Positions 22,201-27,859 of a DNA stretch of 64,000 bases are shown one piece after another (positions within the stretch are counted from its first letter, which is position 1; the number at the start of each line of letters is the position of its first letter). Position numbers and translations under genes: made by a program. Below the pieces are notes generated by a model that did no database searches, had not been told where the DNA came from, and worked only from the letters and a program-made list of their open reading frames with translations. Source of the DNA: Methanococcoides methylutens (GTDB lineage Archaea; Halobacteriota; Methanosarcinia; Methanosarcinales; Methanosarcinaceae); the NCBI RefSeq assembly GCF_000765475.1, contig NZ_JRHO01000013.1:124001-188000 (forward strand). The letters are read 5' to 3'.

Positions 22201-22656
22201 ATGGATAAAACAGTTGTGTATGGCCTGATTATACTCTTTTTAGGAATAGCGATCGGATACAGCATCAATGACATGGCGACTGTCGAAGAGGTTCCCGTTG
22301 GATTAAAAGTACCGGAAATGTCAGCCTACCTGCGTTCCGCTGCTGAGAACAATACTGACAGTCACATCTGGTTTTACGATATCGGATTGTATAATTCCGG
22401 GGATGAAGCAGTATATGTAAACTCGGTTGAGCCTGTTTTCAGTAAAAATTTCTCAAAAATTGTATTGGAAGACAACAACATTATAGTTGTAGACAAACTT
22501 ATAAATGGAAAATCTTCGGTAGAGGTCAGCGGTCAGGTTGAGTTCAATACCACAGGTCTTTCAAGAGAAGAGATTTTTGATTCAACTGACGGGAACATTA
22601 TAGGATATAGGATATCCTCAACAGAGACCATCTATCATTCCTGGGCAGAAATTTAA
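22201..22656 (+). CDS. Small anchored extracytoplasmic protein, copy 1
   Basis: A 151-residue protein of unrecognised family. An N-terminal helix (VVYGLIILFLGIAIGYSINDMA) should act as a signal anchor, leaving a beta-rich domain outside (WFYDIGLYNSGDEAVYVNSVEPVF, SVEVSGQVEFNTTGLS, YRISSTETIYHSWAEI). The pattern recalls the Ig-like fold of CARDB/LEA14-like domains, but I see no catalytic residues. Its tandem paralogue at 23118 shares roughly three quarters of residues by eye. Both follow the same structured leader, so they are probably co-regulated. Confidence 0.7.
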   Translation: MDKTVVYGLIILFLGIAIGYSINDMATVEEVPVGLKVPEMSAYLRSAAENNTDSHIWFYDIGLYNSGDEAVYVNSVEPVFSKNFSKIVLEDNNIIVVDKLINGKSSVEVSGQVEFNTTGLSREEIFDSTDGNIIGYRISSTETIYHSWAEI

Positions 22657-23117: not shown

Positions 23118-23573
23118 ATGGATAAAGCAGTTGTATATGGCCTGATTATACTTTTATTAGGAATTGCAATCGGATATAGCATCAATGACATGGCAACTAT
23201 CGAAGAGGTTCCCGGTGGAATGAAAGTGCCGGAAATGTTAGTCGGCTTGGGCCCCATTGATGAGAACAATACTGACAGTCACAGACTTAGTTACAATATA
23301 TTTTTGTATAATTCCGGGGATGAAGATGTATACGTAAATTCAGTAGAACCAATTTTCGGTGAGAACATCTCAAAAATGGTAGTGACCGAAAACAATACTA
23401 TAGTTGTGGACAGAACTATAAACGGAAACTCTTCGGTAGAGATTGGCGGTCAGGTGGAATTGAATACCACCGGTCTATCAAAAGAAGAGATTTTTGATGC
23501 AACTGAAATAACCATCATAGGATACAACATATCTTCAACAGAGACCATCTATAATTTCTGGGCAGATTTTTAA
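23118..23573 (+). CDS. Small anchored extracytoplasmic protein, copy 2
   Basis: The 151-residue paralogue of 22201-22656, with the same N-terminal anchor (VVYGLIILLLGIAIGYSINDMA) and beta-rich exterior part (YNIFLYNSGDEDVYVNSVEPIFGENIS). Differences are spread through the outer domain, while length and hydrophobic pattern are kept, which argues that both copies are under selection. No function can be assigned. Confidence 0.7.
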   Translation: MDKAVVYGLIILLLGIAIGYSINDMATIEEVPGGMKVPEMLVGLGPIDENNTDSHRLSYNIFLYNSGDEDVYVNSVEPIFGENISKMVVTENNTIVVDRTINGNSSVEIGGQVELNTTGLSKEEIFDATEITIIGYNISSTETIYNFWADF

Positions 23574-23798: not shown

Positions 23799-24548
23799 AT
23801 GAACTCAGACCACAGTAATCGTGGTAATGGACCCATAACTACAGCATTATTATTGGCAGCCGGAAAGGGCAGCCGTCTTTATCCTCTGACACGCGACACA
23901 CCGAAATGCCTCACAATGGTTCATGAGGCGTCTATTCTTGAACGACTTGTCATCAATTTGAAAAAGCAAGGCTTCAAACGTCTTGTTGTAGTCACAGGAT
24001 ATCAGGAAAAATGCATTCGTGATTTTTTGGAAACACGGGCTTGCGGAATGGAGATCGACTTTATTATAAGCCCCCTTTACGCGACCACCAATAACATATA
24101 TTCACTCTGGATGGCACGTAATATCATTAATGAGCAGTTTTTGCTTGTTGAAAGTGATCTTGTTTTTGATGGATCTCTTCTGGATGAAATGTGCTCTCCT
24201 GACAGAATTGCCGTAGCACGCATGCAACCTTGGATGAATGGTTCCACTGTCACAGTCAACCGATCCCAAAATGTTAAGAAATTCCAAAATGGTATTGCTG
24301 GGACTTTTGATGAGGCCAGATACAAGACTGTTAATATCTACAGTTTTTCACTGTCTTCATGGCAGCGTATTACAGAAAGACTTGACCAGTACATTTCAGC
24401 CGGCAAAGTAAATGACTATTATGAAACCGTATTTGCTGAAATGGTAGCTGATGGCAGTCTTGATCTTAAAACAGTCTCTTTTGACAGCAAGCGATGGTAT
24501 GAGATCGATACAGTTGCAGACCTGGCAAAAGCTGAGACTCTATTTTAG
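23799..24548 (+). CDS. LicC-like sugar/choline-phosphate nucleotidyltransferase
   Basis: A 249-residue NTP-transferase. The glycine-rich nucleotide loop LLAAGKGSRLYPLTRDTPKCL sits at about residues 18-38, with SDLVFD as the metal-binding acidic site and a C-terminal RWYEIDTVADLAKAETLF. Family members such as LicC make CDP-choline or CDP-phosphonates; hexose-phosphate activation is also possible. It is first in a run with an aminotransferase-fold enzyme, a CDP-alcohol phosphatidyltransferase and an ATP-grasp ligase, which favours CTP and an amino-alcohol phosphate as substrates. It is the only gene in the window that ends in TAG (24546-24548); beyond it the frame stays open for 82 codons to TGA 24795-24797. 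The family normally ends at the TAG. Confidence 0.85.
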   Translation: MNSDHSNRGNGPITTALLLAAGKGSRLYPLTRDTPKCLTMVHEASILERLVINLKKQGFKRLVVVTGYQEKCIRDFLETRACGMEIDFIISPLYATTNNIYSLWMARNIINEQFLLVESDLVFDGSLLDEMCSPDRIAVARMQPWMNGSTVTVNRSQNVKKFQNGIAGTFDEARYKTVNIYSFSLSSWQRITERLDQYISAGKVNDYYETVFAEMVADGSLDLKTVSFDSKRWYEIDTVADLAKAETLF

Positions 24549-24777
24549 GGGGATAAATACGAAACAATAATTCCTTACGACACCAAGCCACATACTTCTG
24601 GAAGACCAAGGCCGTTTTTCCAGCAATCAAAATGTGGGGTGAAGGTGGGGATTACTCGTTCACTTTCAGGTTTAAAACCATTGCCTAAGTCCAGCTCTTT
24701 CAACCTGAAACCACTTCTTGAGGGTAACGCATTAAAAAATAAAGTATCACATCAAAAAAGTTCTATGGAGGGGATGC

Positions 24778-25896
24778 ATGATGCAACAAAATTATGAGAC
24801 TCAATCTGAAAAATATGAATTTATTTCCGGACAGCATGGTGGTTACTATCGCCATGATTTTATTGATCATGCTTATCTTTACAATCTGTATTTCCCGCCA
24901 GAAGAAGTTTTTACAAGTTTTAAAGATAAAATTCACGACCTTGTCCTTAACTACCCGATTGCACAGGATGCTCTTGACGATCTCATAGGTGATCTGATCG
25001 ATCAGCCTGCTGAAAGGATCGTTGTAGGAAACGGCGCTGCCGAACTTATCAAGATCATATCCGGCCACATATCCAACAAGTTGATCGTTCCAGTACCATC
25101 TTTTAATGAATATGTGAATGCAGCACCAATAGGCAAAGTAGTTGAATTTCCTCTTGAATTTCCATCTTTTCAATTGGATGTAGACAAGTTTGCTGCTGAA
25201 GCGATCAAGGTTAAAGCAGATGTTGCTGTCGTGGTAACACCTAATAACCCAACATCGATCCTGGTTCCCAAGTCCGATCTAATATCTCTTGCACAAAAAC
25301 TTGCAGACCATGACTGTATGCTGATCATCGATGAATCATTCATAGATTTTGCACATGATCAGGATAAGGCAACTCTGGAACATGAACTCGAACGTTATCC
25401 GAACATAGCCATCATTAAAAGTATGAGCAAAGCCTATGGCATCTGCGGTATCAGGATCGGTTATCTGCTAACTGCAAATTTAGCATTTGCTGAATCTGTA
25501 AGGAAAGGTGTACATATATGGAACATTAACGGATTTGCCGAAGAGTTTCTGCGGATATTGCCCGATTACAGACAGGAATTTGTTGAAAGCTGCAAGCAGG
25601 TAAGGATCGACAGGTACAATATGTACAAAAGCCTGTGTGCGATCCCGGGAATGACTGTTTACAAACCCGATGCAAACTTTATTTTCTGCCGCCTCCCGGA
25701 TCATGCACAAAGTGGTCCTGAAATCACACGGAAGTTGTTCATTGAGCATAATATGTACATAAAAAACTGTCAGGACAAGACCCTGCCTGATTCTGATCGT
25801 TATGTTCGTATCGCCAGCCGTACTGAAGCAGAAAATTGCAAATTAGTTGAAGCATTAGTAGATGTTATTGACTCCAACAAAGTGGAAGTATTCTGA
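24778..25896 (+). CDS. PLP-dependent aminotransferase/decarboxylase, HisC/CobD-like
   Basis: A 372-residue fold-type I PLP enzyme. Motifs are GNGAAELIKI at about residue 82, VVVTPNNPTSIL, LIIDESFIDF, the PLP-lysine segment SMSKAYGICGIRIGY and a C-terminal Arg in RYVRIASRTEAEN. It is closest in type to histidinol-phosphate aminotransferase and CobD-like phosphoamino-acid decarboxylases. A strong ribosome-binding site, GGAGGGG at 24768-24774, precedes tandem ATGs. The downstream gene starts within its stop (TGATG). In this cluster it may make a phosphorylated amino-alcohol or amino compound for the nucleotidyltransferase. Aminotransferase and decarboxylase cannot be told apart here. Confidence 0.85.
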   Translation: MMQQNYETQSEKYEFISGQHGGYYRHDFIDHAYLYNLYFPPEEVFTSFKDKIHDLVLNYPIAQDALDDLIGDLIDQPAERIVVGNGAAELIKIISGHISNKLIVPVPSFNEYVNAAPIGKVVEFPLEFPSFQLDVDKFAAEAIKVKADVAVVVTPNNPTSILVPKSDLISLAQKLADHDCMLIIDESFIDFAHDQDKATLEHELERYPNIAIIKSMSKAYGICGIRIGYLLTANLAFAESVRKGVHIWNINGFAEEFLRILPDYRQEFVESCKQVRIDRYNMYKSLCAIPGMTVYKPDANFIFCRLPDHAQSGPEITRKLFIEHNMYIKNCQDKTLPDSDRYVRIASRTEAENCKLVEALVDVIDSNKVEVF

Positions 25897-26546
25897 TGAA
25901 TAATTCAGAACATCAGCGATCGCATCAGACAGGAATGCTTGCTTTCGCCCGTGATCTTCCAAACATCTGTTCGCTTGCAGGACTGTTATGTGCGGTCCTT
26001 AGCATATACTATGCCATATTAGGTAATTTGCCGATCGCGATAATTGGTATGATCTGGGCTGTTGTTTTTGACTGGGGTGATGGTCTCATTGCTCGCAGGA
26101 TGAAGGGACGAACTGATGAATATCGAGCTTTCGGAGGACAGCTTGATTCATTGATAGATATTGTAAGTTTTGGAATTTGCCCCGCTGTATTTCTCTTGAG
26201 CTATGGAGAATTCAGCCCATGGTTCCTACCCGGAGCGTTCGTGATCGTCGCCGTCAGTGCAATACGGTTGAGTTATTTCAATGTTTTCGGGCTGGTCGAT
26301 GATTCGACATATATGGGATTAGCACTTGACAACAATGTACTGATTCTTGCTTTTATCTTCCTGTTTGACAGTTTTTTCAGTCACCCGATCTTTTCAGTCG
26401 CTATATATTCATTGTTTATGTTTATGGCTGTCTTTAATTTAGCACCAATCCGAACGCCCAAGTTTTCCGGCAGGTGGTTTTCTGTTCTCCTGGGTTATGT
26501 CCTGGTGTTAACAGTAATCTATAGCTGGATACTGTGGAGCAGGTAA
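25896..26546 (+). CDS. CDP-alcohol phosphatidyltransferase
   Basis: A 216-residue integral membrane enzyme with about six helices. It carries the family signature D-x2-D-G-x2-A-R...G-x3-D-x3-D as DWGDGLIARR followed by GGQLDSLIDIVSFG; the spacing between AR and G is a few residues longer than usual. These enzymes join a CDP-activated alcohol to a second hydroxyl, for example making archaetidyl lipids. PssA-like features (SFGICPA) are present. It is translationally coupled to the aminotransferase-fold gene. In context it could transfer an amino-alcohol phosphate from CDP to a diether lipid. Confidence 0.9.
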   Translation: MNNSEHQRSHQTGMLAFARDLPNICSLAGLLCAVLSIYYAILGNLPIAIIGMIWAVVFDWGDGLIARRMKGRTDEYRAFGGQLDSLIDIVSFGICPAVFLLSYGEFSPWFLPGAFVIVAVSAIRLSYFNVFGLVDDSTYMGLALDNNVLILAFIFLFDSFFSHPIFSVAIYSLFMFMAVFNLAPIRTPKFSGRWFSVLLGYVLVLTVIYSWILWSR

Positions 26547-26587
26547 CAATAAAATTGGAACTACTTATCTAAAAAAAGGAAGATTTA

Positions 26588-27859
26588 ATGTATGAATTTC
26601 AATCACTCAGAAAATGTATCTCAAACAATGACAATGAGCTAATGATTTACGGAGCAGATCGTTTTTCACAGTTCCCGCGCCGTGATGCATCCGTTAATTC
26701 AAAATGTGACCGAGTGCTTCCGGTAGCACGTCCTGATGATGTGGTAGTTCTACGCGGAAAACTGGACTCCGAATATCATAAATGGCTGCGTTCCCATGGT
26801 CTGGGATCGGATCATATTGTGGAATATGACGCTTATTCAGGAGAAATGTCACTCTCCGAACTTATCGTTAATGATCCTGAACCAGTTAAAAAGATCATCA
26901 GGCAGATCGGGAAAAAACCTGTATATGTGCCATGGTTTTCAGGGCGTATGGAAACTGAAGCTGCAAAAGTTCTTGGAGCTGATCTTTTTGGAGCAACTGA
27001 AACTGCAACACTAAAGTATAATGATAAGTCAGCTTTCAAGACCGTATGTCAAGAATTGGGCATTGCTGTTGTTGAAGGCACTTCATTTGAAATGCATCCT
27101 GAAGACAATGAAAATTGTACCGATCTGGAAAACATTATTAACGGATATCTGTCAACCTGCGAAACTGTTATTATTCGCGGTACTTTGGGTGAAGCCGGCA
27201 TGTCGTTATACAAAACGAAAGGCCATGATATCTCAGAAATATATCACGAAATTGCAGCTAGCGGTGAAAGATCTGTTATCATTGAGCCTTTTCTGAATGT
27301 TTTTTCTTCTCCGAATGATCAGTGGGCGATCAGCAGAGATAGAAATATTAATTCACTTGGGATGCGAGATCAAATATGCGAAAGGGGGATGGTACACGTT
27401 GGCACTCTCAAAGAAGCAAATGCATCAGCAGATACTTTAAATTGCATTACAAAAACATCTGCAAAAATTGTAACTAATATGGCTGAATTCGGATATCGGG
27501 GTATAGTCGGTATAGATTATATTGTATCGGATGATGGTATATTTCCTGTTGAAAATAATGCTCGTTTTAACGGTTCCTCTTATGTGAGCATGATCGTAGA
27601 TAACATCGAAGAATCATTTTCCCCCATTCCATTCTGGAAATTTATGAAGATCAGGACAGAAGCATGCTCATTTCTTGAGCTAACTGAACGTATTGAGCCA
27701 GTACTTTACGATGGCAAAAAATTAAATTCCGTATTTCCTTTTAGTTGTGATACATTGCCGTTATCCGGAGATTTTGCTGTTATACTCTTAGCCGAGAATA
27801 TGGCTGAGATCTTTAACATCGAAGAATCACTGAAAGAAATGGTGATCAAAAGTTTTTGA
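26588..27859 (+). CDS. ATP-grasp ligase-like protein
   Basis: A 423-residue protein with an ATP-grasp fold. An N-terminal Rossmann-like region (ELMIYGADRFSQFPRR) leads to central nucleotide-binding strands (CETVIIRGTLGEAGMSLYK; SVIIEPFL) and a metal-binding segment GIVGIDYIVSDDGIFPVENNARFNG, with E and N ligands in VENNARFN. Such enzymes join a carboxylate to an amine or thiol via an acyl-phosphate. It comes last in the head-group cluster, 41 nt after the phosphatidyltransferase. It might couple an amino acid to an amino-alcohol or lipid head group, but the partner is unknown. Confidence 0.8.
   Translation: MYEFQSLRKCISNNDNELMIYGADRFSQFPRRDASVNSKCDRVLPVARPDDVVVLRGKLDSEYHKWLRSHGLGSDHIVEYDAYSGEMSLSELIVNDPEPVKKIIRQIGKKPVYVPWFSGRMETEAAKVLGADLFGATETATLKYNDKSAFKTVCQELGIAVVEGTSFEMHPEDNENCTDLENIINGYLSTCETVIIRGTLGEAGMSLYKTKGHDISEIYHEIAASGERSVIIEPFLNVFSSPNDQWAISRDRNINSLGMRDQICERGMVHVGTLKEANASADTLNCITKTSAKIVTNMAEFGYRGIVGIDYIVSDDGIFPVENNARFNGSSYVSMIVDNIEESFSPIPFWKFMKIRTEACSFLELTERIEPVLYDGKKLNSVFPFSCDTLPLSGDFAVILLAENMAEIFNIEESLKEMVIKSF

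Follow-up and report, generated by a model that had tools for sequence, protein, structure and literature searches.

In a 64,000-nucleotide stretch of the Methanococcoides methylutens genome (contig NZ_JRHO01000013.1, positions 124,001 to 188,000; in the following, the window), sequence comparison identified four adjacent genes as a horizontally mobile module that travels as a unit. We consider it fairly likely that this module forms a polar head group from a phospho-amino acid, which would be converted to a cytidine diphosphate (CDP)-activated amino alcohol and transferred to a membrane acceptor, followed by acylation of the amine. In detail, the pyridoxal phosphate enzyme (PLP) would decarboxylate the phospho-amino acid, most likely O-phospho-L-serine (Ser-P) to ethanolamine phosphate or alternatively O-phospho-L-threonine (Thr-P) to aminopropanol phosphate, and the nucleotidyltransferase (NTP) would react the product with cytidine triphosphate (CTP) to CDP-ethanolamine (or CDP-aminopropanol). 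The CDP-alcohol phosphatidyltransferase (CDPOH) would then pass the phospho-amino-alcohol to an acceptor in the membrane, in the simplest case a glycerolipid (of the archaeol type in this organism and diacylglycerol in bacteria), and the amino group that is still free would be acylated by the ATP-grasp ligase, the group added probably being an amino acid. The formation of a CDP-amino-alcohol by PLP and NTP is well supported by comparison, and we infer that CDPOH transfers it to an acceptor of the lipid type and that the ATP-grasp ligase carries out the acylation. The genes are arranged as follows:

23799-24548, + strand: NTP, LicC/PntC-like cytidylyltransferase (249 aa; NTP_transferase, PF00483), stop codon TAG at 24546-24548
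24549-24777, + strand: stretch between NTP and PLP, in which the NTP frame continues past the TAG
24778-25896, + strand: PLP, enzyme of the CobD / Ser-P and Thr-P decarboxylase-like group, probable phospho-amino-acid decarboxylase (372 aa; Aminotran_1_2, PF00155)
25896-26546, + strand: CDPOH, membrane CDP-alcohol phosphatidyltransferase with a PSS-like fold and a DNN/R72 signature (216 aa; CDP-OH_P_transf, PF01066)
26588-27859, + strand: ATP-grasp amide ligase of the amino-acid/peptide ligase type, optional fourth gene (423 aa; NCBIfam BesA/LdmS)

An earlier note on this DNA had proposed the four open reading frames (ORFs) at 23799-27859, and both their positions and the named families agree with the Pfam and NCBIfam scans. 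Its description of a run with overlaps or short gaps holds true for PLP and CDPOH, where the ATG of CDPOH shares one base with the stop codon of PLP, but not for NTP and PLP, between which there is a gap of 229 nt.

Close PLP orthologues (81-100% identity) were found in 18 of 150 genomes of the order Methanosarcinales, and reading 10-18 kb around each showed NTP-PLP-CDPOH in all 18. The ATP-grasp gene comes next in the run in 15 of these 18 carriers (exceptions G124, G079 and G119); its close full-length orthologues were found in 15 of the 150 genomes and fragments at contig ends in two further ones, while in two carrier genomes the run is broken by contig ends. The co-occurrence in relatives, on which the earlier note had made its proposal depend, was therefore observed. 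A search of the whole phylum (393 genomes) for CDPOH, at E values up to 1e-40, yielded 14 genomes with this family, all of them within Methanosarcinales. The genes around the module vary from genus to genus. Within the genus, the insertion site is nearly constant, with a PhoU-like gene upstream and RpiA and AspS downstream, and the same-genus genome G116 shows an empty site with identical flanks and no cluster, where PhoU and one small gene of the 22201 type are followed by RpiA. The pairwise divergences of the four proteins correlate with Spearman coefficients of 0.76-0.89, values which retain shared ancestry and represent no test of independence. Since the block is conserved in unrelated contexts, its proteins diverge in a correlated manner and a same-genus genome lacks exactly this block, the comparisons indicate that it is not a chance arrangement.

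Some further observations were made at these loci. Two tandem NTP-PLP-CDPOH copies are present in Methanosarcina sp. STD2_179 (L082:6022-12344), and in G095 a transposase-like ORF (L058:8523-9464) lies between CDPOH and the ATP-grasp gene as a natural disruption of the run. Directly upstream of the module in the window, a tandem pair (22201-22656 and 23118-23573) belongs to a 151-aa family without Pfam match, of which the module-free G116 contains a single copy.

The module is not confined to archaea. The PLP alignment was searched against 84,980 species genomes, and the bacterial loci described here come from the best 80 matches. Among the matches listed, Desulfobacula and further Desulfobacterota carry the NTP-PLP-CDPOH core with identities of about 55-80%, as do members of the Gammaproteobacteria, Spirochaetes, Acidobacteriota, Chloroflexi, Planctomycetes and additional groups, and the isolate Desulfogranum marinum DSM 2058 (L123) carries all four genes at 56-64% identity. 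Among the same matches, 40 loci comprise separate genes; of the 37 with enough flank, 36 have NTP immediately upstream of PLP and 35 have CDPOH as the next gene after PLP. A quick PLP tree, in which the outgroup branch is very long, unites the archaeal rows in a single clade (SH-like approximate likelihood ratio test 95) nested inside the bacterial rows, which suggests a transfer of the module from bacteria to archaea. Many of the bacterial loci originate from metagenome bins, for which misbinning is possible, but the isolate genome of D. marinum and the range of identities speak against explaining all of them in this way. The framing of the cluster as an archaeal pathway in the earlier note thus had to be given up in favor of a mobile module, distributed mostly among bacteria, that appears to have entered Methanosarcinales.

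For PLP, the best solved relative was 6oux, described as 'threonine phosphate decarboxylase-like enzyme' (9.9e-56), followed by 3ftb and CobD. CobD (TIGR01140) was also the best NCBIfam model, with 171.9 bits under the curated cut-off of 290.55. The PLP-site residues K218 (lysine), D185, N157 and R226 are retained, Arg344 aligns with Arg337 of Salmonella CobD, and the N-terminal HGG as well as the DESFxDF motif are present. Judged from these features, the enzyme is CobD-like but not CobD: it shares the HGG and DE(S/A)F motifs and has its best structural and profile relatives in this type, but lies below the cut-off, carries Lys instead of Arg323, is encoded outside a cobamide locus and is linked to a cytidylyltransferase. 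A housekeeping HisC or a cobamide CobD was rejected, because PLP lies under the cut-offs and the genome holds two separate CobD-like genes of about 500 aa beside the pyl cluster. Our best guess is that PLP decarboxylates Ser-P or Thr-P. O-phosphoserine is available in methanogens, and SMUL_1544 and Cj1436 are known Ser-P decarboxylases.

The two best solved relatives of NTP were LicC (1jyk) and PntC (6pd1). NTP comprises the nucleotidyltransferase fold, the metal-binding Asp and Glu and the acidic pair contacting the amine, with E118, E209, D120 and E235 being invariant in 48 of 48 separate and in all readable fused copies. In PntC, Glu104 and Glu196 are positioned to contact the primary amine, while LicC has the smaller Asp105 and Asp192 there (PMC6697681). 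E209 corresponds to LicC Asp192 in the LicC alignment, the counterpart of PntC Glu196, and E118 corresponds to PntC Glu104, a match that rests on the PntC alignment as the LicC alignment is one residue off at this point. Since the Glu pair E118/E209 is invariant as in PntC, the sequence favours a small primary amine over choline as substrate, with ethanolamine phosphate and aminopropanol phosphate not distinguished. A sugar-1-phosphate nucleotidyltransferase was rejected, because the best NCBIfam model, Arch_glmU, reached 75.8 bits, far under its cut-off of 292.1, and LicC and PntC are the best solved relatives. The use of hexose phosphates only, named in the earlier note as the result that would speak against it, would accordingly not be expected, the active-site pattern being that of LicC/PntC and unlike that of a plain hexose-1-phosphate enzyme.

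In at least 37 loci NTP and PLP are fused to one protein of ~600 aa, which indicates that the two work together. The hosts include Treponema, Lachnospiraceae and Bacteroidales, where the fused genes lie in polysaccharide loci, and one Methanosarcina-family genome (G103); LicD was found within 4 kb of seven fused loci, and CDPOH follows the fused copies L121 (actinobacterial) and L119 (myxococcal). The reading of the earlier note that an amino-alcohol phosphate is made and then converted to its CDP derivative gains support from these fusions, the LicD neighbours, the relatives in the PDB and the missing phosphoenolpyruvate (PEP) mutase described below. Compared to the Lic-1 phosphocholine pathway, the module shares the CTP-dependent activation of a phospho-amine, LicD in some loci and a Kennedy-like logic, but it comprises no choline import or kinase, the phospho-amine would be made in place by the PLP enzyme, the main transferase is a CDP-alcohol phosphatidyltransferase, and Glu replaces Asp in the amine pocket. 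Next to the fused genes L124-L159 and L074 in polysaccharide loci, LicD, ornithine cyclodeaminase-like or dehydrogenase-like genes were observed, which may tailor the same amine.

The fourth place of the module is exchangeable between ATP-grasp ligase, methyltransferase and LicD, so that the core would make one activated amine which a swappable partner finishes or redirects. ATP-grasp genes are present in the bacterial loci L095, L099, L102, L103, L106, L115 and L123 and degraded in L113. A family of S-adenosylmethionine-dependent methyltransferases, some members of which match NodS or proline dimethyltransferase models, occurs in eight loci, and LicD occurs in three separate-gene loci (Pfam-confirmed for L098 and L109), none of either group having an ATP-grasp gene. 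In L109, LicD occupies the place of CDPOH, and in L086 and L087 a class III aminotransferase follows PLP. The inclusion of the ligase in the set by the earlier note is therefore correct for the window and for 15 of the 18 carriers, but it constitutes an optional part. Both archaeal and bacterial loci repeatedly carry a calcineurin-like phosphoesterase of ~281 aa next to the module (L081:5085-5930, L071:10617-11474, L113, L115, L116, L123), which is a possible further partner.

The ATP-grasp gene itself remained under the Pfam cut-off (PF02655, 20.6 vs 23.2 bits) and matched the NCBIfam amino-acid ligases BesA and LdmS, in line with the sequence and profile searches, in which amino-acid or peptide ligases were the nearest relatives. 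The residues E322, N324 and R326 (putative E-x-N metal site) are invariant across archaea and bacteria, and fold searches with the AlphaFold model, a poor one with a mean predicted local distance difference test (pLDDT) of 58.9, gave PGM1, BesA and LdmS as hits. In the Campylobacter jejuni capsule pathway, Cj1436 converts Ser-P to ethanolamine phosphate, which Cj1438C links through an amide bond at the expense of ATP (PMC11800397). Both systems would share the maker of a phospho-amino-alcohol and an ATP-dependent amide ligase on its amine, whereas the C. jejuni amide goes to glucuronate of the capsule without a cytidylyltransferase step on that amine.

CDPOH carries the PF01066 motif D-x2-D-G-x2-A-R ... 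G-x3-D-x3-D (D59, D62, G63, A66, R67, G80, D84 and D88), with R67 conserved in 50 of 51 sequences and the other motif residues in 51 of 51. The AlphaFold model (mean pLDDT 86.4) showed its closest fold in MjPSS (7b1k), with a template modelling score of 0.63-0.70. While the fold and the CDP-alcohol phosphotransferase motif are shared with this archaetidylserine synthase, the spacer between AR and G comprises 12 residues instead of 8, and the MjPSS stretch GLPIPAG (GLP-x-PA) reads G..DNN in CDPOH, where D145 is conserved in all 51 sequences and N147 in all but one; R72 is invariant. The scores against TIGR04217, NF038087 and TIGR00473 were 65.8, 90.4 and 67.6 bits, far under the curated cut-offs of 200, 240 and 107, and the genome contains a separate true archaetidylserine synthase with 328.2 bits (cut-off 200) beside an archaetidylserine decarboxylase. 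Plain archaetidylethanolamine as product was judged redundant with this normal pathway. Since these genes are present and phosphatidylserine decarboxylase was found in 10 of 12 bacterial carriers checked, the purpose of the module is most likely not a plain ethanolamine lipid, and a tailoring gene or another acceptor would be its point.

Several findings weigh against the proposed pathway and lead to other explanations. CDPOH is nearest in sequence and fold to serine synthases using a CDP-lipid donor, and the residues D62, S63, D66 and F105 of MjPSS contacting the acceptor serine are retained as D84, S85, D88 and F128, so that donor and acceptor roles could be reversed; moreover, we know of no archaea in which free archaeol is a standard intermediate. 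Accordingly, CDPOH might act like a phosphatidylserine or phosphatidylcholine synthase on a CDP-lipid donor and a free amino alcohol, with NTP and PLP being separate or regulatory, and its weak matches to archaetidylserine and phosphatidylcholine synthases point in the same direction. We regard this as quite unlikely: CDPOH is accompanied by NTP and PLP at nearly every locus, these two are fused together elsewhere, LicD as a user of a CDP-amine donor replaces CDPOH in L109, and the GLPIPAG stretch is changed. An acceptor other than a glycerolipid is rather unlikely, but deserves some weight; the module would then yield a modified surface glycan or a soluble phosphodiester comparable to di-inositol phosphate. 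This would fit the high NCBIfam match of NTP to CDP-inositol cytidylyltransferase/DIPP synthase, the fused copies in polysaccharide loci with LicD, and the occurrence of the same enzyme at 72-80% identity in bacteria and archaea with different lipid backbones, whereas the fold of CDPOH is that of phospholipid synthases and no recurrent glycosyltransferase was found beside the separate-gene form.

The first step can be questioned as well. At the position of CobD Arg323, Lys329 is found in all 54 separate copies and in 35 of the 39 fused ones, and the substrate may therefore differ from Thr-P. PLP acting as a transaminase is possible, and HisC models match it with 136.7 bits; with the rest of the pathway unchanged, it would make another amino-alcohol phosphate, e.g. 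serinol phosphate from dihydroxyacetone phosphate, for which Cj1437 is a related known case. As CobD-like models and structures score best and the HGG and DESFxDF motifs are kept, we consider this reaction unlikely. Highly improbable is a phosphonolipid, for which NTP would be a PntC activating 2-aminoethylphosphonate (AEP). NTP resembles PntC (6pd1/6pd2) as much as LicC and shares with it the Glu pair at the amine and the pairing, often fusion, with a PLP enzyme, but the partner here is CobD/HisC-like, whereas PntC fusions contain a class V AEP transaminase. PEP mutase was not found in the genome by PF13714 or TIGR02320, and none scored over the cut-off in 12 bacterial carriers; the phosphonate route, already thought less likely in the earlier note, was rejected on account of the missing mutase. 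Two further points lower our confidence in the decarboxylase-to-acylation pathway: the ligase model is too poor to place the second substrate, and no experimentally characterised enzyme of this clade was found in the open-access literature searched.

A peculiarity of NTP is its stop codon. In the window, codon 250 reads TAG, as it does in the seven further carriers of the genus that were read, while nearly all other archaeal carriers have TCA, TCG or TTG. Outside the genus, the frame usually continues for about 70-90 codons, overlapping or nearly reaching PLP, and the stretch 24549-24777 corresponds to the C-terminal tail of NTP in most other archaeal genera; the tails of bacterial copies are not conserved. 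Read-through would extend NTP to the TGA at 24795-24797. Behind the TAG, the ratio of nonsynonymous to synonymous substitutions was 0.40 in the NTP frame, compared to 0.98 and 1.07 in the two remaining frames, determined as pairwise sums over six in-frame sequences that are not independent, and the frame was lost in two of eight same-genus carriers. Since the TAG is conserved in the genus, the downstream region evolves like coding DNA and the genome encodes pyrrolysyl-tRNA synthetase (PylS) and tRNA-Pyl(CUA), pyrrolysine read-through at this codon is plausible.

While LicC/PntC-type activation and the CDP-alcohol transferase are already known, the combination of a de novo phospho-amine maker with a CDP-alcohol transferase, an exchangeable last enzyme and a spread between domains was not found described in the open-access literature; the same holds true for a paper on the cluster or the LicC-CobD fusion, most subscription journals lying outside this coverage. 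As a tentative proposal, archaea and bacteria may share one plug-in module for a head group not described so far, an N-acylated (e.g. aminoacyl) phospho-amino-alcohol, the final form of which is set by the interchangeable last enzyme. If true, this would represent a Kennedy-type route starting from a phospho-amino acid, without uptake or kinase for choline or ethanolamine, that passed between the two domains as one unit, the lipid backbones of Archaea and Bacteria remaining different. The proposal predicts that archaea of the Methanococcoides type and D. marinum DSM 2058 contain a specific new polar lipid (or phosphodiester), and cultured carriers such as this isolate make the predicted pathway testable by lipidomics. 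Furthermore, it would give meaning to the widespread unnamed fused LicC-CobD-like proteins in the polysaccharide loci of Treponema, Lachnospiraceae and Bacteroidales.

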